Positions 3,372 through 25,113 of a stretch of 64,000 nt of DNA are shown here, in pieces; positions within the stretch are counted from its first letter, which is position 1, and every line of letters starts with the position of its first letter. Both the position numbers and the translations under genes were made by a program. Under the pieces are notes generated by a model. The model saw only the letters and a program-made list of their open reading frames with translations, searched no databases and was not told the origin of the DNA. Source of the stretch: Fibrobacter succinogenes (lineage in GTDB: Bacteria > Fibrobacterota > Fibrobacteria > Fibrobacterales > Fibrobacteraceae); assembly GCA_902799745.1 (NCBI GenBank), contig CADCBQ010000015.1, forward strand, positions 1 to 64,000, in the 5' to 3' direction.

Positions 3372-4605
3372 CATTAAACAAAATTTCTACATGGCGGGAG
3401 CAATTGCCCTTATTGCGCTGGCCGCCTGTTCCTCGGACAGCCCTACCACTGCGGGCTCCACGACTATTCCGAATGCGACTGCCGAAGTCAGCAGTTCTTC
3501 GAACGAGGTGACAACAAGTTCCTCGGACAACGCAATTACTAGTTCGGCAGACGAAGAAATCAACAGCAGTTCTTCGAATAACGAAGCAATTGCAAAACAG
3601 GACATCATTTTCACCACTACGCCCACAGCAAAAAAAGCAATCCCCCAAGGTGAGGTCATTGTTTACGGTAATGAAAATGGAGCGCACGCATCCTGTTCTG
3701 CCGGTAAATACGCTAGCACAAAAGAATATGACGCCAAAATCAGCATTGCAGATGGCAAAACTACAGAAAGAACTCTGTGGCTAAGAAACTTTGGTGATGC
3801 CTGCAAGGATATTTTAAAATCATTTAAGGAATCATGCTCTATAGGAAAGACTGTTGTTTCACAGGATGCCGCATGCAACGACAACGGCAATTTAAAGGTA
3901 TTCTGTTTCGCAACGAATACAGATAGTATAGGTGATTTTAATGTCATCATGGAGGATTTTACAAAGCAATCCAACAAAATTTGCGGCAGTATAGCCGACG
4001 GTGTAGACTCAACAGAATATGACCTGCCGGTATCGGAACCCGACTCCAACATCAAGGCAAATTCAGGCAGAAAATTCATCATTGCGCCCAACACAGAAAA
4101 CCTAGAGGTCTCCGATGAGGAGCGAACAATCTTGGACAGCCTTGCAAAAGCTTTTCCGCAAAAATCCACGACAGACCCAATTGATGGAATGACGCTTTTT
4201 ATCCATCGTGAAGCGCAGTATAACTTTACAACGAAAATAGAAAGATACACTATCCCCGAAGAAGACAATCCGTACTTCTGCATAGTTGATGTGTATCAAG
4301 AAGAATCAGGATTGATTCGTTCATTCACTCCCAATTCACGTGGAACGCTTCTAGCAACGACTCTTCTTACCCCCGACAATTCTATCGCTTATTTGGCGTA
4401 TGGCGAAGTCTATTCTTCAGTAGGACCAGCCAAGAGCCTATTCAAGGAAGAATGCGAAGCGACTAACGGATCTTTCTATGACTACTACCCCAACGACGGT
4501 AAAGTAGCCGTAGCATGCGCGGTAAAGAATTTTACAGGCATTCCTTTCGAGACGATTGTCAGCGAACAGCAAAACCTGTGCGATAATGATTACAAAAACT
4601 TTTAA
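3364..4605 (+). CDS. Lipoprotein paired with the TIGR02147 regulator
   Basis: 413 residues. The ATG at 3364 is chosen over the upstream TTG at 3349 because AAGGAG at 3352-3357 lies just before it. The signal peptide ends in a lipobox near ALAAC (Cys22). Ser/Asn-rich repeats with SSSN and SSSD clusters run to about residue 80. The remaining 330 residues carry scattered Cys and match no family I know. Codon use is more AT-rich than in nearby metabolic genes. It is convergent with the ABC-class ATPase gene, with 17 nt between stops. A cell-surface role is inferred from the lipobox only. Confidence 0.8.
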   Translation: MLNIKQNFYMAGAIALIALAACSSDSPTTAGSTTIPNATAEVSSSSNEVTTSSSDNAITSSADEEINSSSSNNEAIAKQDIIFTTTPTAKKAIPQGEVIVYGNENGAHASCSAGKYASTKEYDAKISIADGKTTERTLWLRNFGDACKDILKSFKESCSIGKTVVSQDAACNDNGNLKVFCFATNTDSIGDFNVIMEDFTKQSNKICGSIADGVDSTEYDLPVSEPDSNIKANSGRKFIIAPNTENLEVSDEERTILDSLAKAFPQKSTTDPIDGMTLFIHREAQYNFTTKIERYTIPEEDNPYFCIVDVYQEESGLIRSFTPNSRGTLLATTLLTPDNSIAYLAYGEVYSSVGPAKSLFKEECEATNGSFYDYYPNDGKVAVACAVKNFTGIPFETIVSEQQNLCDNDYKNF

Positions 4606-4622
4606 AGCAAAAAATCTTTTAA

Positions 4623-6332: not shown

Positions 6333-6339
6333 GTAGACG

Positions 6340-6345
6340 AAGATA
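6340..6345 (-). promoter_or_regulatory. -10-like box 7 nt before the ABC-ATPase start
   Basis: TATCTT on the minus strand, 7 nt before the ATG at 6332. No good -35 hexamer lies 17 nt upstream, where the end of a REP-like repeat begins. It is part of a set of similar boxes in this window. Confidence 0.35.
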
Positions 6346-6360
6346 GAAAAAAGCATTTAT

Positions 6361-6457
6361 GTCATCCTGAGCAAGCGAAGCGCGTCGAAGGATCCCAATA
6401 CACTGCTTTAGTTAGATTCTTCGACTACGAACCATGCGGTTCTTCGCTCAGAATGAC
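6361..6457. repeat. REP-like element, two inverted copies
   Basis: One copy reads GTCATCCTGAGC...GTCGAAGGATC (6361-6394). A second, inverted copy (about 6415-6457) reads GTCATTCTGAGCGAAG...GTCGAAGAATC on the other strand. The pair could fold into a long cruciform or hairpin, similar to paired REP elements. Related single copies lie at 46986-47019 and 54797-54836. Confidence 0.7.
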
Positions 6458-6602
6458 AATCTCTGCATTTCTCGATCCGCATTTCCGAATTTGGATCTCC
6501 GAAATTCGAATTATTTTCCCCAGGTATCCAAACTTTTGCACAAAAAAAAATTAAATTCCATAAAAACTTTATATTTTTAGAACAAACAAACAGGAGAAAT
6601 CC

Positions 6603-7136
6603 ATGAAAAAGCTTTACATTTTTGCGCTTTTGGTCGCATTCCTCTTTACCGCCGCCGTCGCTGACGACGATCCACCTCCGCGCGGTAAGGCCGCTACCAT
6701 CACCATCATCACCAACCCGCCTAACAGCGACGTGTTCCTCGGTGGCGAACCTCTCGGCAAGAGCCCGATCGAAAACGCAAGCGTCAAGTCTGGCCGTCAG
6801 ACCCTCGTGGTGATCGACCAGGGTTACGAACTGGTGAACCAGCGCGTGAACATTTGGCCGGGTAACGACAAGCGCAATGTGTTCGACTTCGGCACCAAGA
6901 TTCCTAAGGGTGCTATCAAGGTGACCACCATTCCGGGCAAGTGCCTCATCTACATCGACGGCGACAATGCCGACAAGACCGACGGTGCCGCACTCACCAT
7001 CAACAACCTCGATGCCGGTGACCACGTGGTTCGCGCCGAATGCTCCAACCGCAAGTCTGCCGAAGCCCTCGTGACCGTGAAGGGCGAAGAAACCGTCGAA
7101 ATCACCCTCGACGCTTCTGGCAAGAAGAAAAAGTAA
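6603..7136 (+). CDS. Exported protein with two PEGA domains
   Basis: 177 residues with an N-terminal signal peptide (cleavage near AAVA-DD, residue 20). Two PEGA repeats follow: TNPPNSDVFLGGEPLGKSPI (about 38-57) with GYELVNQRVNIWPG, then TTIPGKCLIYIDGDNADKTDG (about 115-135) with GDHVVRAECSN. PEGA domains are small beta-sandwich modules found in surface or periplasmic proteins. The protein ends in a Lys-rich tail. AGGAGA precedes the ATG and a clear terminator follows, so it is probably a single-gene unit. Highly biased GC3 codons suggest strong expression. Confidence 0.8.
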   Translation: MKKLYIFALLVAFLFTAAVADDDPPPRGKAATITIITNPPNSDVFLGGEPLGKSPIENASVKSGRQTLVVIDQGYELVNQRVNIWPGNDKRNVFDFGTKIPKGAIKVTTIPGKCLIYIDGDNADKTDGAALTINNLDAGDHVVRAECSNRKSAEALVTVKGEETVEITLDASGKKKK

Positions 7137-7164
7137 TTTCTCTCTCAGTGGTTTATGCCATTGA

Positions 7165-7192
7165 ACCTCCGACATGTGTCGGAGGTCTTTTT
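7165..7192 (+). terminator. Rho-independent terminator after the PEGA gene
   Basis: A perfect 9-bp stem (ACCTCCGAC / GTCGGAGGT) with an ATGT loop at 7165-7186, followed by CTTTTTATTT. Confidence 0.9.
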
Positions 7193-7229
7193 ATTTATAT
7201 TTAAATGTTGAATTATTACCGGAGTATTT

Positions 7230-8627
7230 ATGAAACGCCTCCTATTGCTTGCAGTATCAGCCCTGTTGCTTTGTTCCTGCGCAAACAAGTCCATGACTCG
7301 TTACGAAACGCTCGCCCCCGTCCTTAAAAAAGAAGGTTTCGAGGGTACGATTGCAAAAATCGAGAAGAAAAAAGACGACCTTTACGGCGAAAAGAGCGCC
7401 TTCCTTTACCACTTTGACGAAGGCATGCTCTACCATTACGCCGGCAAGAACCAGGAAAGCATCAAGCACTTTGAACAGGCCGAACAGATTTACGAAGACC
7501 TGTACACCAAGTCCGTGACTAACGAAGTAGCGGCCATTGCCACCAACGACAACATTCGCCCCTACCGCGCACGTCCCTTCGAAGTGCTGATGATGTACCA
7601 GTACCAGATTCTGAACTACCTCGCCATCGGCGATCTGGACGGCGCGTTGGTCGAAGTCCGCAGAGCGCAAATCGCCTCCGAAGCCTTGTACCAGAAAGAC
7701 AAGGAAAAAGTGAACGATAACGGCTGGCTGCGTTACCTGAGCGCTATCGTTTACGAAATGGCCGGCGAAGAAGACGATGCCGCCATTGCCTACCTGAAAG
7801 CTGCCAAGGCATTCGAAGAAGGCAACGTAAAAATGCCCAAGGAAGTCTGGGAATACATTACTGAAGCGCTCACCAAGATGGACCGCGCTGACGACTTGAA
7901 AGGCTTAAAGACCGAACCGCTCGCCCAGACCCCCAAGGCCACCGAAGCCCGTACAAAAGGCCAGGAAATCATCGTGGTGGGCTATGCAGGACACAGCCCG
8001 ATTCTCGGCGAAATGTACCTGTCGGGTACCTACGTGAGCGGCACCGCCATGAACCTTACCTACAAAGACGGCAAGACCGGCAAGATCAACACCGTCACCG
8101 TATTCGCACCCCCTGTCGCAGGCGCAGGCAGCAACACGTTCCACGTAGGATTCGCTCTCCCCGAAAAGAAGGAACTGCCCCAGCGCGCAAGCATGTTCAG
8201 CGTGAATGTAGACGGCAATATGCGCGTTTCACCTGAAAAGGTCGCCGACATTGATTCGGAACTGGAACAGAACATGAAAGACGAAAACGCGACCACCATG
8301 GTCCGCACCGCAGGCCGAGTGGTGCTCCGCACGATTGCAGCCCAGAAGGCCAAGAAAGCGACCAACACGGGCAACGGCGTTTTTGACCTGGTGAAGAACC
8401 TCGCCGTAGACGTTGGCCAGAGCCAGCTGGAACAGGCCGACCTTCGAATCGGGCTGTTTATGCCCAACTCCATCAACGTGACCCGCATCCCTGTAAACGA
8501 AGGTAAACATCAGGTAAATGTTTCGGCAATGGGTGCGCACGGACAGGTTGTCGGGGACTATAAATTGAACGATATTGTGGTCAAAAAAGGGCAAAAAAAG
8601 CTAGTCGTCGTTCCCGCCATAGAGTGA
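7230..8627 (+). CDS. COG3014-type lipoprotein with repeat-like helices
   Basis: 465 residues. The signal peptide ends in the lipobox LLCSC (Cys17). Residues about 25-235 are helical and tetratricopeptide-like (FHFDEGMLYHYAGKNQESIKHFEQAE type segments, YLAIGDLDGALVEVRRAQ, YEMAGEEDDAAIAYLKAAKAF). The C-terminal half is a beta-rich region with IIVVGYAGHSPI near 250. The whole matches the uncharacterised COG3014 family of exported proteins. Its position between PEGA and outer-membrane protein genes fits an envelope role; no enzyme activity is suggested. CCGGAG lies upstream of the ATG. Confidence 0.75.
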   Translation: MKRLLLLAVSALLLCSCANKSMTRYETLAPVLKKEGFEGTIAKIEKKKDDLYGEKSAFLYHFDEGMLYHYAGKNQESIKHFEQAEQIYEDLYTKSVTNEVAAIATNDNIRPYRARPFEVLMMYQYQILNYLAIGDLDGALVEVRRAQIASEALYQKDKEKVNDNGWLRYLSAIVYEMAGEEDDAAIAYLKAAKAFEEGNVKMPKEVWEYITEALTKMDRADDLKGLKTEPLAQTPKATEARTKGQEIIVVGYAGHSPILGEMYLSGTYVSGTAMNLTYKDGKTGKINTVTVFAPPVAGAGSNTFHVGFALPEKKELPQRASMFSVNVDGNMRVSPEKVADIDSELEQNMKDENATTMVRTAGRVVLRTIAAQKAKKATNTGNGVFDLVKNLAVDVGQSQLEQADLRIGLFMPNSINVTRIPVNEGKHQVNVSAMGAHGQVVGDYKLNDIVVKKGQKKLVVVPAIE

Positions 8628-8709
8628 TTTTAAGTATTTTATGAAAATAATAGTATCCGCTTTTTGAAATATTAATGTAATTTCAAAGGCAAACATTTAA
8701 GGAGCACAT

Positions 8710-9528
8710 ATGAATTTAAAAGCTTTAGTCGCTGCTGGTGCATTGCTCGCCACCCAGTCCTTCGCAATCGTGGGCGTCGGTTTCCACTATGCGCCCGGTT
8801 TGGGCACCAAGATGAGCGGAATGGACGCTCCCGCTCCTGTAGTTGACGACGGTACTGTCGCCCTGCAACACCAAGGCTTTGACGGCGTGATGCAAGGTTT
8901 CGGTTTCAAGGCATGGATCGACCTGCTCCCCGTAATCGACATCGAAGCGACCTTCAACATCCAGTTCGGCTCCTACGATGCATCGCTTTTCGTGACGAAC
9001 CCGGCAGACCTCTCCGTGAACGAAGTCCCGCTCGAAATTGAACTGGGCGGCACCCCGTTCGGCAAGGCCAACCCGAAGTTCGTGGCCATGACCGGCGACC
9101 TTTCCATTACCTACCCCATTACGTTCCTCCCGATCATTCGCCCCTACATCGGTGGCGGTCTCTCTTACCACCTGAACAGCTTCATCTTGAACAAGAAGTT
9201 CGTATCGAGCATTATTGACGGTACCACGCAGGAAATGATTACCGTCCTCTCCCAGATCGACCCGGCCGATCCGAACTCCGTTGCCGCTGCACAGGAAAAG
9301 TCCAAGCAGCTCGGCGAAGTCATGAAGGAAAAGGTGCAGAAGGCTGCTGTTGACGAAGGCCTGAACACCAGCATCGGTGGACACATCTTGATCGGTACCC
9401 GCGCCAAGCTCCCGATTATCCCGATTGCCGCATACGCCAACTTCAAGTACTACTTCGGTGGCGACTATCCGGAAGAAATCGATGCCGGCAACATGACGGC
9501 TGAAATCGGTATTGGCTTTGCAATTTAA
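8710..9528 (+). CDS. Outer-membrane beta-barrel protein
   Basis: 272 residues with a cleavable signal peptide ending near QSFA. Alternating hydrophobic strands rich in Gly, Tyr and Phe (GVGFHYAPGLGTK, FGFKAWIDLLPVIDIEATFNI, IRPYIGGGLSYHLN, ANFKYYFGGDY) and a final strand ending in FAI suggest a small barrel. Residues about 160-215 form a helical insert. The specific function is unknown. AAGGAGC precedes the ATG. The response-regulator gene starts 24 nt after the stop, so it may head the two-component operon. Confidence 0.75.
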   Translation: MNLKALVAAGALLATQSFAIVGVGFHYAPGLGTKMSGMDAPAPVVDDGTVALQHQGFDGVMQGFGFKAWIDLLPVIDIEATFNIQFGSYDASLFVTNPADLSVNEVPLEIELGGTPFGKANPKFVAMTGDLSITYPITFLPIIRPYIGGGLSYHLNSFILNKKFVSSIIDGTTQEMITVLSQIDPADPNSVAAAQEKSKQLGEVMKEKVQKAAVDEGLNTSIGGHILIGTRAKLPIIPIAAYANFKYYFGGDYPEEIDAGNMTAEIGIGFAI

Positions 9529-14644: not shown

Positions 14645-14667
14645 GCACCGCGTTGAGCGGTGCCTTT
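14645..14667 (+). terminator. Terminator after the repeat-protein gene
   Basis: A 7-bp stem GCACCGC / GCGGTGC with a 5-nt loop, then CTTTC. It may serve both strands, since the peptide gene on the minus strand ends at 14698. Confidence 0.7.
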
Positions 14668-14697: not shown

Positions 14698-14823
14698 TTA
14701 GCCTTCATATTCAGCATCCATAGGAGCATCTTCGCAAGTGCTGCATTCCAGAATGCTCGGAGTGTAATCCATTTCGACTACTTCCATCAAGGGTTTGCTG
14801 TATACTTTCTTTTCGCTGTTCAT
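14698..14823 (-). CDS. 41-residue CxxC peptide, downstream of the short CUB-like gene
   Basis: Starts MNSEKKVYSKPLMEVVEM, contains ECSTC near residues 26-30 and ends in EYEG. There is no signal peptide or membrane helix. AGGA lies before the ATG, and an in-frame ATGATG seven codons upstream overlaps the stop of the preceding gene, so the two are translationally linked. It is clearly homologous to the 45-residue peptide at 16528-16665: MNxEKKxYxKPxM, CxxC and EYEG are shared. The family resembles short MKK-Y-x-P-type peptides often seen in Bacteroidales genomes (recalled, not checked). Function is unknown. Confidence 0.7.
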   Translation of the reverse strand: MNSEKKVYSKPLMEVVEMDYTPSILECSTCEDAPMDAEYEG

Positions 14824-14840
14824 TTTAAATTCCTGCTGCA

Positions 14841-16232
14841 TCATTTTGCAATCCCCTTCTTGTTAAAGAATGCGCCCTTGGTGGTGGGCTTGTGGTTGGT
14901 GCTACGGCCCTTAAGGTCGAACCAGCGATCAATCTTGATAGCACCGGTGACAGTGTTCATGCGGCCAATAGCCGTCGTCTTTTCGTCTTCATCGATGAAT
15001 TCAGCATCGATTGTTTCGGGCAAGTTTTCAATAGAGCTGATTTCGCTCTGGGCAAGCGGACGACCGTTAGCAACAGACTGAAGCGTTACGTAAGCATCAA
15101 CCTTGCGAATGTAAGCACGCATTGGAATGGCATATGAGCCAGCACCAACCTTGACATACTGACCTGCAGTGTAAGCGCCATCGGGGTCATTTGCAGCAGC
15201 AAGGGCATAGGCAAGTCCAAGTTCCGGGTCGTTAGATTCCCAAGTCTTGTATTGGTAAGTACCCTTGAAAATCCATTTTTTAGTATTATCATATTGTTCT
15301 GCGATATCATCAGTCAAGAAAGTAGCCTGACCGCCATTCAAATAGAATTGGAGTTTCGTTGCATTAGGAACAATAACTGCATACGGAGTATTTGCAGCCG
15401 GAAGCGCATTTGCATTATCCAATGTAATATTCCTGAAAGTAGCCTTCCATTTGCATTCATTGTCCACCTTAACAACTTGCTTAAGATAGTAGAACTTGGC
15501 GTTTGTCGTAGCTGTATTTGGCAAACTGAACGGCAACACGATGGTAGACGGAGTTCCCGCAGTAAAAGTACGATTGTACACAATAGAGTCTACTTTAATA
15601 GCTGTTGAAATGCTCACCTCATCACTTCCGGCATAGTCGCCGTTAATCTTGGCAACTCCATATCCATTATCCCCTTGTCTATAAATATCAATCGCAGCAG
15701 TAGCGGAATTCTTCTTTAAAACCTGTATAGTTAAGTCCAACCCAATAGATGATCCAGATGAAGTGCTAGGTGTATATCCGCGAAGAAGAATTCGCAAAGA
15801 ATTACCAGTAGTCAATCTCGGCTTAAAAGTTAGTTCTTCACCATTATCAGACATTGACGGAACATTTATTAATTGCGTGGCAGCAGCAGTCGACCCATCA
15901 AAAATCGTAACAGAAGGGCGGACAGAATAAGTTGTTCCATTCGGAGCAGCTCGAGATATGCTCCCAGACACTCGGAATATACAATCATTTGAAGCAACCA
16001 ACACTATAGCACCGGTAGTGTTTGCGCTAATAGTCTGCTCACCACCAAAATTGTACACTTTGAAGCTTGTTACGTTATCCGCTAAACTTACGTTATCAAC
16101 GGCTCCTGATTGTGGAATACTTACCGTACCGCCGTCTGTTGAAAATTGGACTTCAGCCGCCCACGCAGATGTTGCCGCCATGCTTAAACCGAGCAAGGCG
16201 AAGAGTCTCAAAAATTGATTTTTGAGTTTCAT
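14841..16232 (-). CDS. Secreted protein with one CUB-like module and tail domain
   Basis: 463 residues with a signal peptide (MKLKNQFLRLFALL..., cleavage near AWA-AE, residue 26). Residues about 30-150 form one CUB-like beta-sandwich (TSFKVYNFGGEQTI, LVASNDCIFRVSGS, IFDGSTA). About 170-430 is a conserved region shared with the 1405-residue neighbour (TIVLPFSLP, TFRNITLDNANALPAANTPYAV, YVKVGAGSYAIPMRAY). The end, WFDLKGRSTN...TKGAFFNKKGIAK, resembles type IX-style C-terminal sorting tails. It appears to be a shortened paralogue of the next gene. AGAAGGGAA precedes the ATG. AT-rich codon use in the N-terminal half differs from neighbouring core genes. Confidence 0.75.
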   Translation of the reverse strand: MKLKNQFLRLFALLGLSMAATSAWAAEVQFSTDGGTVSIPQSGAVDNVSLADNVTSFKVYNFGGEQTISANTTGAIVLVASNDCIFRVSGSISRAAPNGTTYSVRPSVTIFDGSTAAATQLINVPSMSDNGEELTFKPRLTTGNSLRILLRGYTPSTSSGSSIGLDLTIQVLKKNSATAAIDIYRQGDNGYGVAKINGDYAGSDEVSISTAIKVDSIVYNRTFTAGTPSTIVLPFSLPNTATTNAKFYYLKQVVKVDNECKWKATFRNITLDNANALPAANTPYAVIVPNATKLQFYLNGGQATFLTDDIAEQYDNTKKWIFKGTYQYKTWESNDPELGLAYALAAANDPDGAYTAGQYVKVGAGSYAIPMRAYIRKVDAYVTLQSVANGRPLAQSEISSIENLPETIDAEFIDEDEKTTAIGRMNTVTGAIKIDRWFDLKGRSTNHKPTTKGAFFNKKGIAK

Positions 16233-16276
16233 AATATTTTCCCTTCTAATTATAAGGTTACTTTAACCATATAGTA

Positions 16277-16305
16277 AACTTACAATTTACATCCATTTCT
16301 GTCAA
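16277..16305 (-). promoter_or_regulatory. Promoter of the short CUB-like gene
   Basis: On the minus strand TTGACA (16300-16305), 17 nt, TAAGTT (16277-16282), extended to TAAGTTTA. The 1405-residue paralogue has the same boxes and spacing. Confidence 0.65.
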
Positions 16306-16351
16306 GTAAACAGGAATATACTTTAGAAGGATTTTTATACCATTTTAGGGG

Positions 16352-16369
16352 CCAAACCGGCGGGTTTGG
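16352..16369 (-). terminator. Hairpin after the long CUB-like operon
   Basis: Stem CCAAACC / GGTTTGG with a 4-nt loop just past the stop of the last peptide gene. The following U-run is weak, so termination efficiency is uncertain. Confidence 0.5.
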
Positions 16370-16373
16370 TCCG

Positions 16374-16523
16374 CTAAACCGGCAAATCAGGTCCGTCAAC
16401 CAGATTTTCGCCAATGGGCCCGTGGATTACCGGCGTCTTATCGCCATCGCTGCTCTGCAAAAGGGTAGAACGCTGTTCCAAACGGAACACCTTCATTTCG
16501 GGGGCATTATATTCTTTTTTCAT
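16374..16523 (-). CDS. 49-residue peptide, last gene of the CUB-like operon
   Basis: Starts MKKEYNAPEMKVFRLEQR, has LLQSSDGD in the middle and ends in a Gly/Pro/Asp-rich segment (GENLVDGPDLPV). It has no Cys and no signal peptide. GAGGG precedes the ATG, which lies 4 nt after the stop of the 45-residue peptide. It shares only the Y-x-x-PEM start pattern with the two CxxC peptides. The MKK-Y-x-x-P leader followed by a variable Gly-rich tail is compatible with a ribosomally made, modified peptide precursor, but no modifying enzyme is seen nearby. Confidence 0.65.
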   Translation of the reverse strand: MKKEYNAPEMKVFRLEQRSTLLQSSDGDKTPVIHGPIGENLVDGPDLPV

Positions 16524-16527
16524 CTGA

Positions 16528-16665
16528 TTAACCCTCATACTCTGACTCAACAACAGGATTTTCCTCCTGACCGCAATCACTGCATGCCTGCAGCACATTT
16601 GGTTCATAAGCCATATCTACAATATCCATTTCAGGTTTGAAATATAATTTCTTTTCTCGGTTCAT
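16528..16665 (-). CDS. 45-residue CxxC peptide, downstream of the long CUB-like gene
   Basis: Starts MNREKKLYFKPEMDIVDM, contains ACSDC near residues 27-31 and ends in EYEG. A strong GGGAGGAA site lies 7 nt before the ATG. The gene follows the 1405-residue protein gene by 17 nt. The junction sequence (ATGATG..G.AGGAATTTAAAATGAA) is nearly the same as at the other locus, showing that protein gene and peptide gene were duplicated together. It has no export signal. Function is unknown. Confidence 0.75.
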   Translation of the reverse strand: MNREKKLYFKPEMDIVDMAYEPNVLQACSDCGQEENPVVESEYEG

Positions 16666-16682
16666 TTTAAATTCCTCCCTCA

Positions 16683-19600
16683 TCATTTGGCAATCACCCT
16701 CTTGTTATAGAACGCACCCTTGGTGGAGGGCTTTTTATTGGTGCTACGGCCCTTGAGGTCGTACCAGCGGTCAATCTTGAATTCACCCGTCACAGTGTTC
16801 ATGCGACCAACAGCCATCGGTTTTTCTTCTTCGTCAATGAATTCAACATCAATTGATTCGGGCAGCTCCATAGAGCTTATGTAAGACGTTTCGCCCCATG
16901 CAAGCGGACGACTTAACCTTACACTAGAGTTAATCTTGCTCATGTAAGCGCGCATCGGAGTAGCATATGAACCTGCACCAATCTTGACATACTGACCAGC
17001 TGTGTAAGCGCCATCGGGATCATCTTCAGCAGCAAGGGCATATGCAAGTCCAAGTTCCGGATCGTCACTTTCCCATGTTTTGTATTCATAGGAACCCTCG
17101 AAAATCCACTTTCCAGTATTATCATTTTGCTTTGCAATTTCGCTTGTCTGCAAAGTAGCCTGACTATCCTCAAAACCAAACCAAAGTTCTTCGTCGTCAA
17201 CAATAACCGCATAAGGCGTATTAGCAGCCGGAAGTGCACTTGCTTTGTCCAATGTAATATTCCTGAATGTAGCCTTCCATTTGTATTCACCTTTTACCTG
17301 AGCAACTTCCTTAAGATAGTAGAACTTACCATTTGTCTCAGCACCTTCCGGCAAACTGAACGGCAACACAATCGTCGAAGGAACATTCGGAGTAAATTCA
17401 CGAATATAGGCAATGTAATCAACATCTATCGAATTTGGAATATTTACCTTTTCCTTTCCGCTGTAATCGCCATAAACAGCTGCAATTTTCGAGTTATCCT
17501 CTCCTTCATATACACTCACAGCAGCAAAAGAAGCTGATGATTTTACTACCATCACTGATAATTCAGGGCCATACGCTTTTCCATCATCATTCGACTTAAA
17601 GCGAAGTGTCATACTTCGTCCTGAGCTCATTGTCCAAGCACTCTGATTAAACGATGCTTTTGCAATCACAGCAGCACTCGTATTGATTCCATCATAAACA
17701 ATCAAAGAATCACCCGTATCAGCAACATAAGTACCTCCACCCACCATTAAGCCATATCCTTCGGGAGCTGTCAATGTGAGAGAGCCATCGCTATTATTGC
17801 TATAATCTCCATAATAGCCTCCATCATCATAAACAATAAATGCGTCAATACCTTCCGGAATATTCATAGTAACTGAGCCCGACTTCGGGATTTTGATTCC
17901 CGTTTCCCATTCACTAACAAGCCTTACGCGCATAAAGCTCGGACCATCTCCGCTTGCAACATGGACAAGAGTCATTTTTTTGGTCATTGTTTCGCCAGAC
18001 ATCAACTGGGCATTTGAACCAACAGGGTTTACAAATTCTCCTTGATAGGCGTTGAATCCCATGCCAAAATCACTTTCATTCACATACCCTTCTAGCTGGA
18101 ATAAATATCCTTCGGGAGCTGTCAAAATAAGAGGTTGAGAAGCCCTATTGTAACCGATGTCTTCTCCTTCTATTTCAAAAGATTGCACCCCATTCGGGAC
18201 CGTAACCCTAAGCGGCTCGTATATGGGCATTGTGATACTAAGGCCAGCGTCGGCAGATAATTCGTTAACAAAGGTCGCTCTGGTAATTGCATCTTCAGGA
18301 GGCATTGCAAATATGGCCTCATTGCTAGAATACCATGTTCCACCTGTCACTGCTACGGGATTCCAGCTATCTTTTCCCCGAACCTCAATTTTATTAAGGA
18401 AATAGTTTTCTGCTGGCGTTGCCGTTACAGTCACAGGCGTATTGAATTTTGCGGAGGCCTTGTTAACTTCTACACTACCGTTTTCGATTTCTTCAAATAT
18501 AGACACCGTGTATTCATGGTTTGGATCAACAACAGAAACCCTTAAAGACAAACCTGTTCCAAAGCCACGATCTTCGCCAAGCTCCATATAGTGAAGCAGC
18601 ATGTTTTGACCAGAACTATTCTTGCTTACGCTGGCACTTGCCGCCACTTTCAACAATTCCGTAGCACTGATATCTGCACCATCATAAACGTACAGGGAAT
18701 CTAAACCCGTTCGCGGAGCTACTTCTCCCTGAATCTGCAATATCTTTCCTTCAGGAGCTGTCAAGAGAATGGAACTTTCAATTGCATCTTCCGAATACCC
18801 CACATTAAGTTCAAAAGACTTTATCTCATCTGGAATAGAAATGCTTTCCGTACCTGATTTTTTGACAACAACATCAGCATACTGAATGTAATCAAACGAT
18901 GGAGTAATCGTAACTTCAGTCTGTGGCATCGTAAAGGATATTGTGTTATTAGTATACCATCCACCGGTGTAATCAACATTACCCTCATACGAATCTGTGG
19001 AATACTCATCTTGAATTTTAACATTATTGAAGAAATAGCCGCTATTGGGACTTGCAGTCAAAGTCACCACTGTCCCCGGCGTTGCTTCCGTAGGCAGATT
19101 TATAAAACTTCCGTTATCTACAGATACAATATTAATCGCATGGGGAGCATTCGGATCAACAACAGTAACGGTTAAGTCGAGACCTTGGCAAGAACCATAA
19201 GTAGCATAGAAATAAACAAATATATTGCTACCCGCACTTAACTTTGTTGGTATATCGGTATTAATAGAATACCTATCGAGTAATTCGGAGGCATTGTCAT
19301 CGACGCCATCATAAACAGTCAAATGCCCCGTATTATAACCCGACCTTAATTCTACTGAACCTCCTAAACGGAGTTTCTTCCCCTTTGGAGCAGACAACGC
19401 TAAATAACCTTTGCTATTGGAACTAAAATTACCATCCTTTCCGCCATCATCATATATGTGGATTTTTTCTATTCCTTCAGGTATTGCAAACGAGAAAGTT
19501 CCATTTTTCAGCATATTGATGCTTGGACCATCTTCAACACGGACAAATACCGGCTTAACCTTGACAGCCGAACCAGGCATTTTGAACAACATTTCGCCAG

Positions 19601-20900
19601 ACTCATACCAAGTAGCATTGCTCACATCTACTTTCAATCCTTCCGCATCAAAGGCTTCAACATAGTCAAGCATATAACCCTCGTTCGGCGTTGCAGTCAA
19701 CGTAACAGAAGTATTAGCAGTAGCAGAACTGACTGACGGAGTAACCGTTCCTCCCGCATTATTAGTAACTGTTACATTATTATATACACTTGGATCAAGA
19801 ACAGTCACGCGGAATGCATCGCGGGAACGATATTTTCCATCACCCTTGTAATGAAGAGCCATGACATGTTGCGTGCTAATCGGTCTTCCAATTTCACGAG
19901 CCAAGCTCTTTTTCAATAACGTCGCATTTTCATCAGTTCCATCGTACACATAAAGAGAGTCGTCTCCACTGTTTGTCATATCTTCGCTCATTATCTGAAG
20001 GATTTTTCCTTCAGGGGCTGTCAACACAATGGTATTGTTCTCTGTTCCATAATAATCCGGTCGAATAAGAAATGTACTTACACTATTAGGAATTATTACC
20101 GGAAGTTCCCCGGTGGAGGGCATTTGCAAATCAAGATATTTATCAATACTATAAAAAGTAGAACGCACTATAGCATCTGTCCTCGGCATAGTGAACGACG
20201 CCACGCCGCCCGAATACCATTTTCCACCACTAAACCCATTCACTGGATTTCCGTAATCATCATAGGAAAGACTATTGTTGTATTCATCTGTAACATTAAT
20301 TTTGTCCAGATAATAGCCCTCCTCAGGAGTTATCGTTAAGGAAATCGTCGTTCCAGCATCAGCCTCTTCCGGAGAAGCGAAAATGCTCCCGTGTTCAGTA
20401 TCATTGATGACAACCATATGCGGGCCCGCAGGATTAACAACCGTCACTTCCAAATACAAGCCATCCGTAACAACTGAACTCGTAGAAAATTCAAGGAGCA
20501 GATTACGCCCAGAACTTAACGTTCTTCCGACATCTTTAAAGCCGGTTTTGGAAAAAAGATAGTTAGACTCATCAGAACCATCATAAACATACAAGTAACT
20601 ATTGACAGCCCCCGTACTTCCCGTTAAACGGAGCAAGCGTCCCTCTGGTGCAGTCAAAACTAAAAAGCCGTCACTATTTGGAGTGTATCCACCTTCAGCC
20701 CCACCATCATCATAGACTTTGAAAGACGTCACATTATCGGGGATTACCAATTCATCCGTTCCCGTAGCCGGCATATTAATGTAGAAGCCGCCGTTGCCGT
20801 CGGATTCCAGCGTTCGTTGTGCAGCCCATGCGGTTGATGTTGCCGCCATGCTCAATGCGAACACGGCGAAGATGCTCAAAAAATTGCTTTTGAGTTTCAT
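16683..20900 (-). CDS. Large secreted protein of alternating CUB-like and InlB-B-like modules
   Basis: 1405 residues, signal peptide 1-27. Six CUB-like modules of about 115 residues can be followed by their VYDDGG / LTAPEG / LYVYDG signatures (roughly 40-155, 256-375, 456-585, 680-795, 885-1000, 1005-1120). Four shorter InlB-B-like modules lie between the first five (signatures TLTASPNSGYFF, WY-SGG, F-MP, about 85-100 residues each). The last 280 residues match the 463-residue neighbour and end in a WYDLKGRSTN...TKGAFYNK-type tail. The layout suggests a filamentous adhesin or stalk exposed on the cell surface; ligand binding is unproven. AT-rich codon use sets it apart from core genes. Confidence 0.75.
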   Translation of the reverse strand: MKLKSNFLSIFAVFALSMAATSTAWAAQRTLESDGNGGFYINMPATGTDELVIPDNVTSFKVYDDGGAEGGYTPNSDGFLVLTAPEGRLLRLTGSTGAVNSYLYVYDGSDESNYLFSKTGFKDVGRTLSSGRNLLLEFSTSSVVTDGLYLEVTVVNPAGPHMVVINDTEHGSIFASPEEADAGTTISLTITPEEGYYLDKINVTDEYNNSLSYDDYGNPVNGFSGGKWYSGGVASFTMPRTDAIVRSTFYSIDKYLDLQMPSTGELPVIIPNSVSTFLIRPDYYGTENNTIVLTAPEGKILQIMSEDMTNSGDDSLYVYDGTDENATLLKKSLAREIGRPISTQHVMALHYKGDGKYRSRDAFRVTVLDPSVYNNVTVTNNAGGTVTPSVSSATANTSVTLTATPNEGYMLDYVEAFDAEGLKVDVSNATWYESGEMLFKMPGSAVKVKPVFVRVEDGPSINMLKNGTFSFAIPEGIEKIHIYDDGGKDGNFSSNSKGYLALSAPKGKKLRLGGSVELRSGYNTGHLTVYDGVDDNASELLDRYSINTDIPTKLSAGSNIFVYFYATYGSCQGLDLTVTVVDPNAPHAINIVSVDNGSFINLPTEATPGTVVTLTASPNSGYFFNNVKIQDEYSTDSYEGNVDYTGGWYTNNTISFTMPQTEVTITPSFDYIQYADVVVKKSGTESISIPDEIKSFELNVGYSEDAIESSILLTAPEGKILQIQGEVAPRTGLDSLYVYDGADISATELLKVAASASVSKNSSGQNMLLHYMELGEDRGFGTGLSLRVSVVDPNHEYTVSIFEEIENGSVEVNKASAKFNTPVTVTATPAENYFLNKIEVRGKDSWNPVAVTGGTWYSSNEAIFAMPPEDAITRATFVNELSADAGLSITMPIYEPLRVTVPNGVQSFEIEGEDIGYNRASQPLILTAPEGYLFQLEGYVNESDFGMGFNAYQGEFVNPVGSNAQLMSGETMTKKMTLVHVASGDGPSFMRVRLVSEWETGIKIPKSGSVTMNIPEGIDAFIVYDDGGYYGDYSNNSDGSLTLTAPEGYGLMVGGGTYVADTGDSLIVYDGINTSAAVIAKASFNQSAWTMSSGRSMTLRFKSNDDGKAYGPELSVMVVKSSASFAAVSVYEGEDNSKIAAVYGDYSGKEKVNIPNSIDVDYIAYIREFTPNVPSTIVLPFSLPEGAETNGKFYYLKEVAQVKGEYKWKATFRNITLDKASALPAANTPYAVIVDDEELWFGFEDSQATLQTSEIAKQNDNTGKWIFEGSYEYKTWESDDPELGLAYALAAEDDPDGAYTAGQYVKIGAGSYATPMRAYMSKINSSVRLSRPLAWGETSYISSMELPESIDVEFIDEEEKPMAVGRMNTVTGEFKIDRWYDLKGRSTNKKPSTKGAFYNKRVIAK

Positions 20901-20958
20901 ATCCCATTCCCTTCTATTTGATAGGTGTACGATAATAGCTTACCGCATACATACGATA

Positions 20959-20987
20959 AACTTATATAGAATAGCTTAGTTTGTCAA
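20959..20987 (-). promoter_or_regulatory. Promoter of the long CUB-like operon
   Basis: TTGACA (20982-20987), 17 nt, TAAGTT (20959-20964), extended to TAAGTTTA. This is the same arrangement as at the short paralogue. Confidence 0.65.
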
Positions 20988-21084: not shown

Positions 21085-24000
21085 CTAGAGGCCCAAGTCA
21101 AGCGCGTTGGCCTTGCCGCGGCGTACGCCCCACAAGAAGTCCTGAGTGCGGTTCACCATGGTCTTGCTGCCGACCTTGATGCGGTATTCAAGTCTTGCGA
21201 TGTACACGCCGGTCGAGACCAGGCGACCGTTATTGGCGCGCATGTTCCAGGCGAGGAACAGCTTGCCGTTGTTTTCGAGGCAGGTGCCCTGGCCATGTTC
21301 CTTGAACACGTCGTCGTTACAGGTGATCACGTTCGAGTAGCTGTTCACGAATTCACCGAGGCTAGAGTAGTAGGTAGCCTTGTAGTAAAGTTCCGTGCTC
21401 TGGGCAACCGCCTCGACAATCTGCTTGATATCGGACTCGGTGCCGCGTACAAACATGTTGATGTTCTGGGAGTTGAGCACGCCGTTCTTGTAGGCATCCA
21501 CAATCATCGGATCCAAGTCGAATCTCTTCTTGGCTTCGTTGATGCTCATGGAACCGCCATCGACTGCGGCAATAATCTGTTCGAGCGTGAACGACAAGCC
21601 CGTTTCGGGGTCTTCGACCTTATTGTTGTTGTGGCTTGTCATGTACTGGTTCACAGCCTTCGAAATATCCGTAATCTCGTTTTCAACAAGTTCGGCCATG
21701 TTCAGGTCACCCAAGAAATGTCCCTGCGTACCATAAGCTGCAGCGGCCTGTTCCGCCGTAAGGATCGAGGGATCCTGAACGACCTTCGGCACGGTGGCTT
21801 CTTCGCTACGAATGATTTCCCTTGCGTTCTGGTATGCCGGAGATTCCGGGTTGAGCGTCACCACGCCCGGGCTCGTGATAGTCACCTTCTGTTCGCCGGT
21901 AATGCGTACCCACGGGTTGAGCACATGCGGGGGCACATCGACCAAGTCGTATGCAACTATAACGCTAGGCGCCACCGCGAAGCGCACGGAGTCACCCACG
22001 GCCGGGATAACGTCGGTGTCGGCACCCTTCGGGAAGATCAACTTCCAGCGGTTCGGAGCTTCGGCAGAAACATCGCTTGCGACCTTGACTTCGGTACTCA
22101 TGACACCATTCTTCCAGACATGGAAACTGAACAGGTCAGAGATCTTGTCGAGATCCTGGATGCCTTCGCTGAAGGTGATCACGAGCTGCGTGTTACCATC
22201 GCTCATGTAAGAAACTTCGGCAGATGTAACGACCGGGCCAATCTGGTCCTGGAGCGTTCCGTTCACCGGGAAGTAAGACTTGTGGCCGTTGTCGGAGTAC
22301 GTGTACCAGACATAAATCTGTCCGGAATACGGCTTGTCGATACCACCGGTAATGATCGAGCTGCTAAAGCCGTTGCCGTTAGCCACGATGGTGGCTTCGG
22401 TGCTACCTTCACGGTAGTTAGCCTTGTAAGTAGAGCTGAATGTCGTGTCGCCCGGATCGGGGTTGAAATGGAACCTGGCCGAATCCAGGGAGTTCTTGCC
22501 ACCGAGCTTTCCGTCGAACTGGATCCAGATACTGTCGCCACGGCCGTCACCGTCGCGGTCGTAAATATAGGCCAACTGGATTTGCGGCACAGGCGGCAGA
22601 GCAAAGTCGATTCCGGTCCAGATCGCGGTATTCGAAGAAGCCGACTTGACATAGAGAATGCCACCCCAGACTTCACCCACGGCCTTCAAGTAGAACGAAG
22701 CCTTGCCATCGACAAGATGGATTTCGGTAATCGGGTTGCCAACGGCATCGCAAGGAATCAACGCCTCGTCGTTTGTCGAGGGGTAAACGATATCGTTCGG
22801 GAGGATCGAGGGATCGGTATACTGCACATACACCTGGTAAGACTGGCCGACCCACATGGTGTCCTTGGAACCGTTCAGCTGATAAACATCGCTCCTGACC
22901 GTTTCGCCGAGAGCATTGCCGGCAGCATCGGTATAGATAAGCTTCGGCACGGGGAAGTTGCCCACCCTAAAGCCGACGTTCTTGGACTGGGAATTGTCGG
23001 ACCTGAGCGTGATGCGAATGTAGTAGCTACCCGGAGCAAGGCCGCGGCTGTCCTTGATAGCGACAGAGTCGATCTTGAGTTCGTCGAAATCCTTGTTGAT
23101 GGTAATGCCGCCGAACCAGGTGCCAGCAGAATCGAGTTCGATACCGTCGGCAGGCAGGTTTCCGCCATAGAGCGTAAAGATAGAGGGACCACGTTCCAGA
23201 GAAAGTTCCTTTTCGCCGCTCGAGAAGTCGCAAGAGAGCTTGTTCTTGCGGACCTTCTGCCAGATTTCCCTATCGATTACGTTCGGGTCGCCGTTGTTCG
23301 GGTTCTTGAGCAAAATGCTGGCCTCGGTCTTCAGGTCAATCGAGGTATGCATACGGAAATTCGAAGAACTGGTATGGCGTTCGGCGTAGAAAATGTGGAA
23401 GTTGTAGACTTCGCCCGGCACAAGCTTGTCGGCAGGGTTGTTCTGGCCAATTGTATCCAGGTCTACCGAGCCGGCAACCTGTCTATGCTGACCACCAATG
23501 TCCACCACCAGTTTATTGTTGATGAACACCCATACGTCATCGTCGCCATAGAAGTCGAAGTATTGACCCGGCACGTATTCGAAGGTGGCCTGGATCTTCA
23601 TGGTAAAGCCGAAGTTATGGTTGCTGTTGTCCTTACCGCCACGCTGCTGATCGTAGTAGGGGTTGGGAACAGTTCCTGCTTCGTCAAGGTATTTGAAATC
23701 GTCCAGAAGGAACATACCGCCCTTGTTGGCTTCGTTACCCTTGGAAATAGCGTCGTTGGAGACTTCGGCCAGCCAGAATCCATCATCGTCCATGGAAATG
23801 TAAAGGTCGCGGCAAGTCATGTTGGTCAACTTATTGCCCTGAGCATCCACACCCAGAGATTCCGGAAGGAACCAGTAATCCAAATGGTCGGTAATCTTGC
23901 AGTTTTCCGGGAAAGTCGCAGAGCGTACAGGCACCCCGTTAGGGCCGAGGTTCACGTCCACCATGCCGTCCATGGATCCCTTGGCATTGTTGCTGCCGCC

Positions 24001-24927
24001 ACATCCGCCAGAGCCGAAGTCTGCGCTCACGCCGTATTCGGGGTTACCGTTACCGTTAATGCCATCGCCCTTATTGCCATGCAGCCAGTCGAACATCATG
24101 ACCGGGAGCTTTTTCAGGGGGCAGTCGCCCAGCACGCCTGCAGGGTGCGAACTGTAGACGTTCGGGGCGCCTTCCTGGTTACCCTTGACCCAAATGGTGT
24201 CGGAGAGGGCGGCCACAGAATCGAGGTTGATTTGGGCAAGAATGGGGTCAGCCGTGGTAAGACCTGCGGAACCTACATAGCTGCCGCCAATAGTCTGCTT
24301 GAAGTAGACATTGAGGTTTTCACCAGAAGATTTGGAATTTGCGATAAACCAGCCGCAATATTTATCCATTGCGGACATCGTGGAGACGGAATCGCCGTCC
24401 ACATACAAAATGGCGTTGGTGTTTGTCCAAGGAGTAAAGAAGGCGATGTATTTTTTGCCATTGGCACCGGGGGTGTCCCTGCCAGGATTATCGCCGGGAC
24501 CACCGGGATTGTCCCTACCGGGGTTGTCCCGACCCGGATTTTCACCAGGTTCCTGACCAGGACCTCCAGGATTTTCACCAGGAGCCGGTGCTGCAGCAAA
24601 AGACCAAGTTCCATTTCTATTCACGGTAATGGTTGCAGAGTCAGATTCTGCATAAAGTTCAGCACCCGAAATTGTGGCAACCAGGTTTTTGTTGCTACAA
24701 GGACTACTCTTATAAATGGAAAATTCTTCCTGAGTAATATCATCTGTGGTAAACGGCAAGCCATTCCTGATATTTGTACACTGTTGGCGCCCCCATTGAT
24801 CTTCTACAATGATATAAGCAGACCCATTACCATCATAGGTCGCCTTCAAATAGTAACTCGCCGCGAAAGCCGCGGGTACAAGTAAAGCGAGCAAACTGGT
24901 TGCTCTCTTAAATAATTCGCACCTCAT
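21085..24927 (-). CDS. Fibro-slime domain protein (1)
   Basis: 1280 residues. The ATG at 24927 is chosen because TAGGAG sits 6 nt before it; the ATG at 24933 is too close. A signal peptide (about 1-22) is followed by a Gly/Pro/Asn linker of GENPG and GRDNPG repeats (about 113-150) and a conserved LPVMMFDWLHG segment near 275. The fibro-slime (PA14-like) domain is about 445-540, with FEYVPGQYFDFYGDDDVWVF and KLVVDIGGQH. Several beta-rich repeats follow. The C-terminus (GRLVSTGVYIARLEYRIK ... FLWGVRR) is shared with the next gene. Fibro-slime proteins have been reported among Fibrobacter outer-membrane and cellulose-binding proteins, so adhesion is the likely role. It is a tandem paralogue of the gene upstream. 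Confidence 0.85.
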   Translation of the reverse strand: MRCELFKRATSLLALLVPAAFAASYYLKATYDGNGSAYIIVEDQWGRQQCTNIRNGLPFTTDDITQEEFSIYKSSPCSNKNLVATISGAELYAESDSATITVNRNGTWSFAAAPAPGENPGGPGQEPGENPGRDNPGRDNPGGPGDNPGRDTPGANGKKYIAFFTPWTNTNAILYVDGDSVSTMSAMDKYCGWFIANSKSSGENLNVYFKQTIGGSYVGSAGLTTADPILAQINLDSVAALSDTIWVKGNQEGAPNVYSSHPAGVLGDCPLKKLPVMMFDWLHGNKGDGINGNGNPEYGVSADFGSGGCGGSNNAKGSMDGMVDVNLGPNGVPVRSATFPENCKITDHLDYWFLPESLGVDAQGNKLTNMTCRDLYISMDDDGFWLAEVSNDAISKGNEANKGGMFLLDDFKYLDEAGTVPNPYYDQQRGGKDNSNHNFGFTMKIQATFEYVPGQYFDFYGDDDVWVFINNKLVVDIGGQHRQVAGSVDLDTIGQNNPADKLVPGEVYNFHIFYAERHTSSSNFRMHTSIDLKTEASILLKNPNNGDPNVIDREIWQKVRKNKLSCDFSSGEKELSLERGPSIFTLYGGNLPADGIELDSAGTWFGGITINKDFDELKIDSVAIKDSRGLAPGSYYIRITLRSDNSQSKNVGFRVGNFPVPKLIYTDAAGNALGETVRSDVYQLNGSKDTMWVGQSYQVYVQYTDPSILPNDIVYPSTNDEALIPCDAVGNPITEIHLVDGKASFYLKAVGEVWGGILYVKSASSNTAIWTGIDFALPPVPQIQLAYIYDRDGDGRGDSIWIQFDGKLGGKNSLDSARFHFNPDPGDTTFSSTYKANYREGSTEATIVANGNGFSSSIITGGIDKPYSGQIYVWYTYSDNGHKSYFPVNGTLQDQIGPVVTSAEVSYMSDGNTQLVITFSEGIQDLDKISDLFSFHVWKNGVMSTEVKVASDVSAEAPNRWKLIFPKGADTDVIPAVGDSVRFAVAPSVIVAYDLVDVPPHVLNPWVRITGEQKVTITSPGVVTLNPESPAYQNAREIIRSEEATVPKVVQDPSILTAEQAAAAYGTQGHFLGDLNMAELVENEITDISKAVNQYMTSHNNNKVEDPETGLSFTLEQIIAAVDGGSMSINEAKKRFDLDPMIVDAYKNGVLNSQNINMFVRGTESDIKQIVEAVAQSTELYYKATYYSSLGEFVNSYSNVITCNDDVFKEHGQGTCLENNGKLFLAWNMRANNGRLVSTGVYIARLEYRIKVGSKTMVNRTQDFLWGVRRGKANALDLGL

Positions 24928-25113
24928 CCACATCTCCTAGGGGCCAAAAAGCCCATATATACTTATCAATGTTTCATAGTAGAAATAAATTTTTTTTGCA
25001 CAAAAATCAACTAGGCCCAACTCGAAAACAGTTAATTCTGCTTAACAATCGTGTAAATCGCGTTTTTTGGGGGTAAAATTCCCGAAAAAAGGTCGTTTTT
25101 CTGAGAACAAAAA

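Follow-up and report, generated by a model that had tools for sequence, protein, structure and literature searches.

The stretch of Fibrobacter succinogenes DNA analyzed here (the window; 64,000 nt) carries a duplicated locus that we read, with a probability of about 0.6, as two substrate pairs of a genome-wide RiPP-like peptide system, whose products would be modified and exported in trans by one machinery. Each pair consists of a gene for a surface protein with a common C-terminal domain (CTD) and, directly behind it, one or two genes for small peptides.

Two protein-peptide units in the window

Duplication of the locus was confirmed. Both units lie on the minus strand, and in each the CTD-protein gene is followed by the small peptide gene(s): genes for a 1405-aa protein and two peptides (45 and 49 aa) in unit 1, and for a 463-aa protein and one 41-aa peptide in unit 2, with three small genes across both. 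The features are as follows.

16683..20900, minus: 1405-aa secreted surface protein with signal peptide, six CUB-like and four InlB-B-like modules and CTD (ORF; Pfam; iterated HMM)
20823..20900, minus: signal peptide of the large protein (MKLKSNFLSIFAVFALSMAATSTAWA; sequence, common to unit 2 via the 91-nt repeat)
20430..20780, minus: CUB-like module 1 (aa 41-157; iterated HMM)
20280..20417, minus: InlB-B-like (Flg_new_2) module 1 (Pfam)
19791..20129, minus: CUB-like module 2 (aa 258-370; iterated HMM)
19539..19778, minus: InlB-B-like (Flg_new_2) module 2 (Pfam)
19152..19520, minus: CUB-like module 3 (aa 461-583; iterated HMM)
18885..19136, minus: InlB-B-like (Flg_new_2) module 3 (Pfam)
18522..18872, minus: CUB-like module 4 (aa 677-793; iterated HMM)
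17967..18236, minus: CUB-like module 5, a partial match (envelope aa 889-978; iterated HMM)
17538..17897, minus: CUB-like module 6 (aa 1002-1121; iterated HMM)
16686..17540, minus: CTD of the large protein, ending WYDLKGRSTNKKPSTKGAFYNKRVIAK (T9SS-like tail; 67% to the second copy, profile E 2.9e-96)
16528..16665, minus: 45-aa YxxP peptide 1 (MNREKKLYFKPEMDIVDMAYEPNVLQACSDCGQEENPVVESEYEG; profile E 5.6e-11)
16374..16523, minus: 49-aa YxxP peptide 2 (MKKEYNAPEMKVFRLEQRSTLLQSSDG...; profile E 2.3e-13)
14841..16232, minus: 463-aa secreted surface protein with signal peptide, one CUB-like module and CTD (ORF; CUB module; AlphaFold2 model)
15717..16124, minus: CUB-like module of the small protein (aa 37-172; iterated HMM; AlphaFold2 model)
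14844..15698, minus: CTD of the small protein, a ~200-residue beta domain plus T9SS-like tail (profile; AlphaFold2 model)
14698..14823, minus: 41-aa YxxP peptide 3 (MNSEKKVYSKPLMEVVEMDYTPSILECSTCEDAPMDAEYEG; profile E 7.3e-13)
14645..14663, minus: hairpin and T-run directly past peptide 3 (hairpin listed on the plus strand; the minus strand reads GGCACCGCTCAACGCGGTGCTTTTC)

Between the units, direct repeats with lengths of 278, 258 and 246 nt (74-81% identity) span the CTDs together with the transition from protein gene to peptide gene, and a 91-nt repeat (78% identity) spans the ribosome-binding site and signal peptide. These repeats bear out the sequence-only reading, in which the units were said to share a ribosome-binding region, a signal peptide and a C-terminal domain; the two copies of the ~280-aa CTD are 67% identical. 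Common promoter boxes had been proposed as well. By eye, TTGACA is present at 20987-20982 and 16305-16300, with an AAGTTTA-like stretch and TAT-rich sequence after it. A consensus scan, however, found 19 promoter-like sites in the region, where shuffled sequence gave 13.6 +/- 4.0. Since this count is within about 1.4 sd of the shuffles, the sigma-70 match was rejected and shared promoters are unproven. At the stop codon of each protein gene there are overlapping ATG triplets (AAATGATG); the peptide itself probably begins ~17 nt past that stop, after a GGAGG-like or AGGA site. For peptide 1, the ribosome-binding site reads GGGAGGA and an upstream ATG overlaps the preceding stop. The hairpin and T-run at 14645..14663 are the likely terminator of unit 2.

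The module counts given earlier (one CUB-like module in the small protein, six CUB-like and four InlB-B-like in the large) hold. In the large protein, Flg_new_2 (InlB-B, PF18998) matched four stretches (E 7.5e-25) and CUB (PF00431) exceeded the Pfam cut-off (E 3.9e-5), with iterated HMM searches providing the CUB-like totals; the fourth InlB-B-like module must lie between CUB modules 4 and 5. The AlphaFold2 model of the small protein (pLDDT 79), a structure prediction that had been suggested for the modules, matches CUB folds in the PDB over its N-terminal part (TM 0.64-0.69 by target length for 1spp, 1sfp and 2wno). Across loci, the modules of CTD proteins are of generic adhesin types (LRR_5, GLUG, Flg_new, MBG and Cleaved_Adhesin), and judging by these types the proteins may function as adhesins.

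No Pfam or NCBIfam family matched the CTD. Its AlphaFold2 model (285 aa) has a pLDDT of 84 overall and 84-97 across the first 200 residues; searched alone against the PDB, it matched no fold (best E 0.3), and the structure therefore gives no function. If the RiPP-like reading holds, the CTD would serve as a marker for protein-peptide pairs.

The peptide family and its pairing with CTD genes

The peptides carry a leader of the form KKxYxxPxMxVV(x7)LLxxS, followed by a hypervariable acidic tail. Among 45 aligned peptides, Y and P are each found in 45/45, K-3 in 42/45, L+16 in 38/45 and S+20 in 37/45; the invariance of YxxP is partly by construction, because the alignment was assembled partly by motif. 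Leader positions are near invariant, whereas the tails have an entropy of about 3.3-3.8 bits and are 26% Asp+Glu and 5% Lys+Arg. These 45 sequences have the form of short precursor genes with a conserved leader and a variable core, one of the marks of a RiPP. The earlier description of a CxxC peptide gene with nearly the same junction in both units stood in part: the junction lies inside the direct repeats, but CxxC occurs in only 9/45 relatives, so YxxP replaces it as the defining feature and CxxC is incidental.

The frames are kept well beyond the window's own genome, with the family found in 65/71 Fibrobacter genomes and also in rumen Bacteroidota. In a sister genome (G005), the counterparts of the window peptides have open frames, and dN/dS is low for peptide 2 (96% aa identity, dN 0.023, dS 0.28) and peptide 3 (dN 0.22, dS 2.1). 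The pairing thereby withstood the conditions that had been set beforehand to refute it: loss of the frames outside this genome, or their disruption in close relatives. In the fetched loci, a peptide is present behind 34/50 CTD genes compared with 1/265 other long ORFs. This control and the dN/dS of peptides 2 and 3 reject the reading of the peptides as chance ORFs.

The co-occurrence search suggested earlier for Fibrobacter and Bacteroidota showed a tight pairing. In 16 Fibrobacter genomes, 81/88 peptides sit directly behind a CTD gene, at a distance of 2-358 nt (median 29; chance fraction ~0.0008), and 58/71 full CTD genes have a peptide; the other 7/88 peptides are away from any recognized CTD. 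The profile was built from motif-selected sequences behind CTD genes and may favor CTD-linked peptides, but the search itself was genome-wide. Rumen Prevotella/Bacteroidaceae carry the same pairing: by motif, 18/47 CTD genes in rumen Bacteroidota have a peptide (at least 1 of the 18 is spurious), compared with 5/323 control ORFs.

A conserved cassette and its proposed role

At many Fibrobacter loci, the pair is followed by a cassette in the order CTD-peptide-NTP_transf_5-HprK-S26-PqqD-ABC. The window's own genome has one (L064), on another contig, away from both window units. Cassettes are also found in two MAGs, one of Prevotella (L153) and one of Xylanibacter (L156), there without a recognized NTP_transf_5, and the proteins are ~56-66% identical (median) between Fibrobacter and these MAGs. 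At some loci (L051, L053, L059 and L067), the cassette comes after a CTD gene and no peptide was recognized in between. Pfam identified NTP_transf_5 (E 7e-39), PqqD (E 5e-12) and the ABC exporter, while the S24/S26 (SipW-like) peptidase falls marginally below the cut-offs. Catalytic motifs are intact in the kinase (FHsAvV, GKSGTGKST and NDDNPVV), the peptidase (GrSMlPFI and VvHRi) and the NTP-transferase (GDIDiwV). The His-Lys-Asp-Asp of the kinase is the set described for lasso-tailoring kinases (PMC9266682). A PqqD protein, with a predicted role in binding the leader, adjoins precursors at many loci and occurs in the same genomes, a second mark of a RiPP.

Across 71 genomes, peptide and PqqD presence agrees in 66: 62 have both, 4 neither, 3 a peptide only (G018, G042 and G106) and 2 PqqD only (G032 and G040), several of the five discordant genomes being incomplete. 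The count took in only the ~90-aa PqqD, and its Fisher p of 5e-4 ignores the relatedness of the genomes. Most genomes have one small PqqD for up to 13 peptides (1-13 where present).

We propose that each pair provides a Sec-exported surface protein, with changeable adhesin-type modules on the common CTD, and one or two co-translated precursors of 40-50 aa with conserved leader and hypervariable acidic tail, and that one machinery, encoded at another place in the genome, would serve all precursors in trans. PqqD would bind the leader through YxxP; decoration of the peptide by phosphorylation or glycosylation, most likely at the LLxxS Ser, would fall to the HprK-like kinase and NTP_transf_5 protein; the SipW-like peptidase would separate the leader and the tail; and the ABC exporter would carry the product outside, to act with or on the surface protein from the same mRNA. 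Of this model, the pairing, the cassette with its intact catalytic motifs and the pattern of presence and absence are observed, whereas PqqD binding, Ser modification, cleavage, export and a surface role are predicted.

Alternatively, the peptides may stay unmodified and unexported, as small cytosolic helpers of the surface protein (pilot, chaperone or translational partner), with the PqqD cassette merely co-traveling. Tight coupling to the CTD gene, the lack of a signal peptide, and the many pairs, both window units included, that have no adjoining cassette all fit such a role. We nevertheless judge it rather unlikely: PqqD and peptide presence largely agree across the 71 genomes, the cassette directly follows the peptide at many Fibrobacter loci and follows it in two Bacteroidota MAG loci, and a conserved leader with a hypervariable tail is the usual pattern of a precursor, not of a chaperone.

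Less probable still is a reading in which the peptides give rise to secreted bacteriocins or signals and the CTD protein is the cognate partner, as a receptor or in immunity or delivery. In its favor, every surface protein comes with a peptide and tail of its own, the hypervariable tails and 1-13 peptides per genome fit diversifying competition, and peptide clusters are plentiful in rumen bacteria (PMC7533575). However, the surface proteins bear generic adhesin-type modules rather than one receptor type. Moreover, the tails are strongly acidic, unlike most membrane-active bacteriocins.

The earlier proposal of a variable-length surface stalk paired with a small peptide was correct in the pairing but missed the RiPP-like form, the cassette and the T9SS-like CTD end. 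Beyond the trans-acting RiPP-like system itself, we tentatively envisage a distributed system that arms surface adhesins, common to two rumen phyla: a translation-coupled precursor for each T9SS-type protein, one shared machine, and a modified peptide on or with the protein. Such pairing could represent a new means by which surface proteins are equipped. If the RiPP-like reading is true, a whole class of modified peptides has been overlooked in major fiber-degrading rumen bacteria owing to the tiny size and scatter of its genes, and surface proteins are connected to RiPP-type chemistry, a link that we did not find described. The system would also offer a testable handle on the role of large modular surface proteins in Fibrobacter and rumen Prevotella.

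Comparison with known systems

The last ~30 CTD residues (WYDLxGRKLxxKPTxKGxYYxNGKxVIVK) resemble type IX secretion (T9SS) tails. T9SS cargo has been proposed earlier for F. succinogenes (PMC6851124), and the T9SS marker SprA (TIGR04189) is over cut-off in 24/25 genomes, including the window's own. In contrast to known cargo, the CTDs miss the sorting domain TIGR04183 (0/50 match at E 0.1) and carry, ahead of the tail, an extra beta domain of ~200 residues that matches no PDB fold. The suggestion of T9SS export therefore comes from the look of the tail and the presence of a T9SS.

The HPr-rel-A (TIGR04352/TIGR04353) and SynChlorMet (TIGR04249) cassettes likewise combine an HprK-related kinase with a PqqD-family protein. 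However, the Fibrobacter kinase scores weakly against these models (about 15-25 bits, with cut-offs of 200 for TIGR04352 and 125 for TIGR04249), and the definitions include no surface-protein partner. Bacteroidales RiPP clusters (PMC10352776) also come from gut-type anaerobes and have small precursors and export genes; in the parts of that survey consulted, no class resembling the CTD-peptide system was seen, and a term search of its text finds PqqD once and nucleotidyltransferase never. No description was found in literature on SynChlorMet, rumen RRE clusters, or PqqD with T9SS, and the pairing of CTD surface proteins with RiPP-like peptides appears to be undescribed.

A YxxP leader is a trait of lasso clusters. 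Such clusters also contain PqqD, an HprK-type kinase and a nucleotidyltransferase (PMC9266682, PMC7533575), and with all four present and single peptides matching lasso models weakly (E 0.14; E 0.028), the peptides might be lasso peptides with protease and cyclase elsewhere in the genome, but this is very improbable, as the B2 protease family Transglut_core3 (PF13471) is found in 0/16 Fibrobacter genomes and neither B2 nor the asparagine-synthetase-like cyclase C in the cassettes inspected. The peptides are therefore not ordinary lasso peptides, and that reading was rejected for Fibrobacter as far as recognizable B2 goes. The closest likeness is to lasso systems with a tailoring kinase and nucleotidyltransferase (paeninodin and pseudomycoidin), which likewise have a YxxP-type leader on a short precursor, a stand-alone PqqD-like B1, an HprK-type kinase with His-Lys-Asp-Asp, an NTP-transferase and an ABC exporter. 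In those systems, a conserved Ser is the site that the tailoring kinase and PsmN act on (PMC9266682). In contrast to these systems, the Fibrobacter cassettes have an S24/S26 peptidase instead of B2 and C, the conserved Ser of the peptides is at the leader/tail boundary and not at the C-terminus, and the precursors are scattered genome-wide behind surface-protein genes.

The duplicated units and their C-terminal domain

On the minus strand of the window lie two consecutive units, each with a gene for a surface protein and one or two peptide genes:

16683-20900, minus: 1405-residue surface protein, unit 1
16528-16665, minus: 45-residue peptide 1, unit 1
16374-16523, minus: 49-residue peptide 2, unit 1
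14841-16232, minus: 463-residue surface protein, unit 2
14698-14823, minus: 41-residue peptide 3, unit 2

Repeats of 278, 258 and 246 nt with 74-81% identity span the C-terminal domains (CTDs, ~280 residues) of the two proteins and the junction to the peptide gene. The sequence-only reading of a duplicated locus with a common C-terminal region and junction was correct in the main. Its module counts are also upheld: Pfam finds CUB and four InlB-B-like repeats in the 1405-residue protein, to which an iterated profile assigns six CUB-like modules, against one for the 463-residue protein. Structure prediction agrees, the N-terminal part of an AlphaFold2 model of the 463-residue protein (pLDDT 79) matching CUB structures. 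Directly upstream of unit 1 is a gene for a 1282-residue fibro-slime protein (21085-24933, minus; TIGR02148, E 8.8e-42; PA14). Elsewhere in this genome, contig C13 holds a 3145-residue open frame (about 3389-9178) with about ten InlB-B-like repeats (PF18998 matches) and no link to a recognised CTD or peptide.

The CTD is covered by no Pfam or NCBIfam family, and no solved fold matched it. It is present, often in several copies, in 57 of the 101 genomes searched, all Fibrobacter, and its close relatives are in that genus, mostly in rumen and gut MAGs. Since LRR_5, GLUG, Flg_new, MBG and Cleaved_Adhesin modules also precede it, the CTD serves as a shared foundation on which surface stalks of different kinds are built. 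The final ~30 residues of the domain (WFDLxGRKLNxKPTxKGxYYxNGKxVIVK) resemble type IX secretion tails; the type IX model TIGR04183 did not match this tail, which is covered by a PDB sequence match to the end of endo-arabinanase 4kca (E 4.5e-4). Of 25 genomes, 24 carry the type IX (T9SS) marker SprA at a score above cut-off, and published work has proposed that F. succinogenes exports proteins by a T9SS (PMC6851124).

Peptides behind CTD genes

The peptides have a leader, Lys-Lys-x-Tyr-x-x-Pro-x-Met-x-Val-Val, then Leu-Leu-x-x-Ser (its Ser kept in 37 of 45 peptides), and a hypervariable, acidic tail. No Pfam or NCBIfam family covers them, and single peptides match lasso-peptide precursor models weakly. 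Against the sister genome, G005, dN and dS were 0.023 and 0.28 for peptide 2 and 0.22 and 2.1 for peptide 3, the divergence of peptide 1 being too high for dN/dS.

In 40 fetched loci and the window, a KxYxxP peptide follows 34 of 50 CTD genes but only 1 of the 265 remaining long ORFs. A profile built from 45 peptides found 88 in 14 of 16 whole Fibrobacter genomes. Of these, 81 lie on the same strand behind a CTD gene at a median gap of 29 nt (chance fraction near 0.0008), and 58 of the 71 full CTDs in the 16 genomes have a peptide. Two of the seven peptides away from a recognised CTD follow a protein ending in a YDLLGR stretch.

The putative modification cassette

Contig C44 of the window's genome carries a third CTD gene, followed by two peptides and then by NTP_transf_5, an HprK-like kinase, an S24/S26 peptidase, PqqD and an ABC exporter. 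Many Fibrobacter loci share this gene order. In 23-44 distinct sequences the catalytic motifs have stayed intact; the kinase keeps the His-Lys-Asp-Asp known from lasso-tailoring kinases. When only the ~90-residue PqqD is counted, peptides and PqqD occur together in 62 of 71 genomes and are both missing from 4; 3 have peptides alone and 2 PqqD alone (Fisher p 5e-4, kinship ignored). Genomes with the small PqqD have one copy of it, against 1-13 peptides where these are present. The window units stand without a cassette and therefore would be served in trans by machinery elsewhere.

Proteins of the PqqD family serve in leader recognition; those of lasso clusters, the PqqD-like B1 proteins, bind the leader of the precursor (PMC7533575, PMC9266682). 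Because kinases of the HprK-like type phosphorylate a precursor Ser, and the nucleotidyltransferase homologue PsmN is required for hexose addition to precursor Ser (PMC9266682), the LLxxS Ser is the best candidate for a modification site. The SipW-like peptidase is the best candidate for a cut nearby. The simplest reading of the tie between each peptide and a surface-protein gene is that the product would act where the surface protein does.

A C-terminal Ala is found in 18 of 38 peptides close before NTP_transf_5 or the kinase, against 10 of 80 others (p 7e-5). Cassette-proximal peptides (loci L150, L151, L144, L146, L139 and others) often have a common end motif, GLAPxxNDHLA, EKDYFA or DRQA, tails elsewhere being hypervariable; the peptides with such an end may represent a dedicated product. 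Among other arrangements, the window's genome has a further NTP_transf_5 gene, its second (L206, contig C34, 943-2326), with no peptide, kinase or PqqD near it, and genome G032 has a diverged NTP/HprK/PqqD arrangement (L207) and no peptide that we could find. In some genomes (loci L058, L060) CTD and peptide are followed by ~720- and ~640-residue genes that, by eye, look like exopolysaccharide export/biosynthesis genes.

Rumen Bacteroidota and known systems

The CTD scan also matched rumen Prevotella, Xylanibacter and Bacteroidaceae MAGs, in which a motif match follows 18 of 47 CTD genes (at least one of the 18 spurious), against 5 of 323 control ORFs. The co-occurrence of peptide and C-terminal region, which the sequence-only reading put forward for testing, is seen in both groups. 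Tails are again acidic here, often with the Trp-containing ends DDDW or LWNNEW. CTD and peptide are accompanied by kinase, peptidase, PqqD and ABC in one MAG each of Prevotella (L153) and Xylanibacter ruminicola (L156), the proteins being about 56-66% identical to their Fibrobacter counterparts at the median. Misbinned contigs are a possible but less likely source of these MAG findings: the pairing is seen in several organisms, and the CTD proteins there bear different modules (BspA-type LRR, Cleaved_Adhesin).

In Fibrobacter, the absence of the B2 protease family from the 16 genomes searched rules out strict lasso peptides. The sequence-only reading knew of no described system of this form; likewise, we found no description of the arrangement or of its tie to surface proteins in the open-access papers found, which may miss one. 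HPr-rel-A and SynChlorMet cassettes are related by kinase and PqqD only. We judge the parts to be known RiPP parts; their arrangement and tie to surface proteins may be new.
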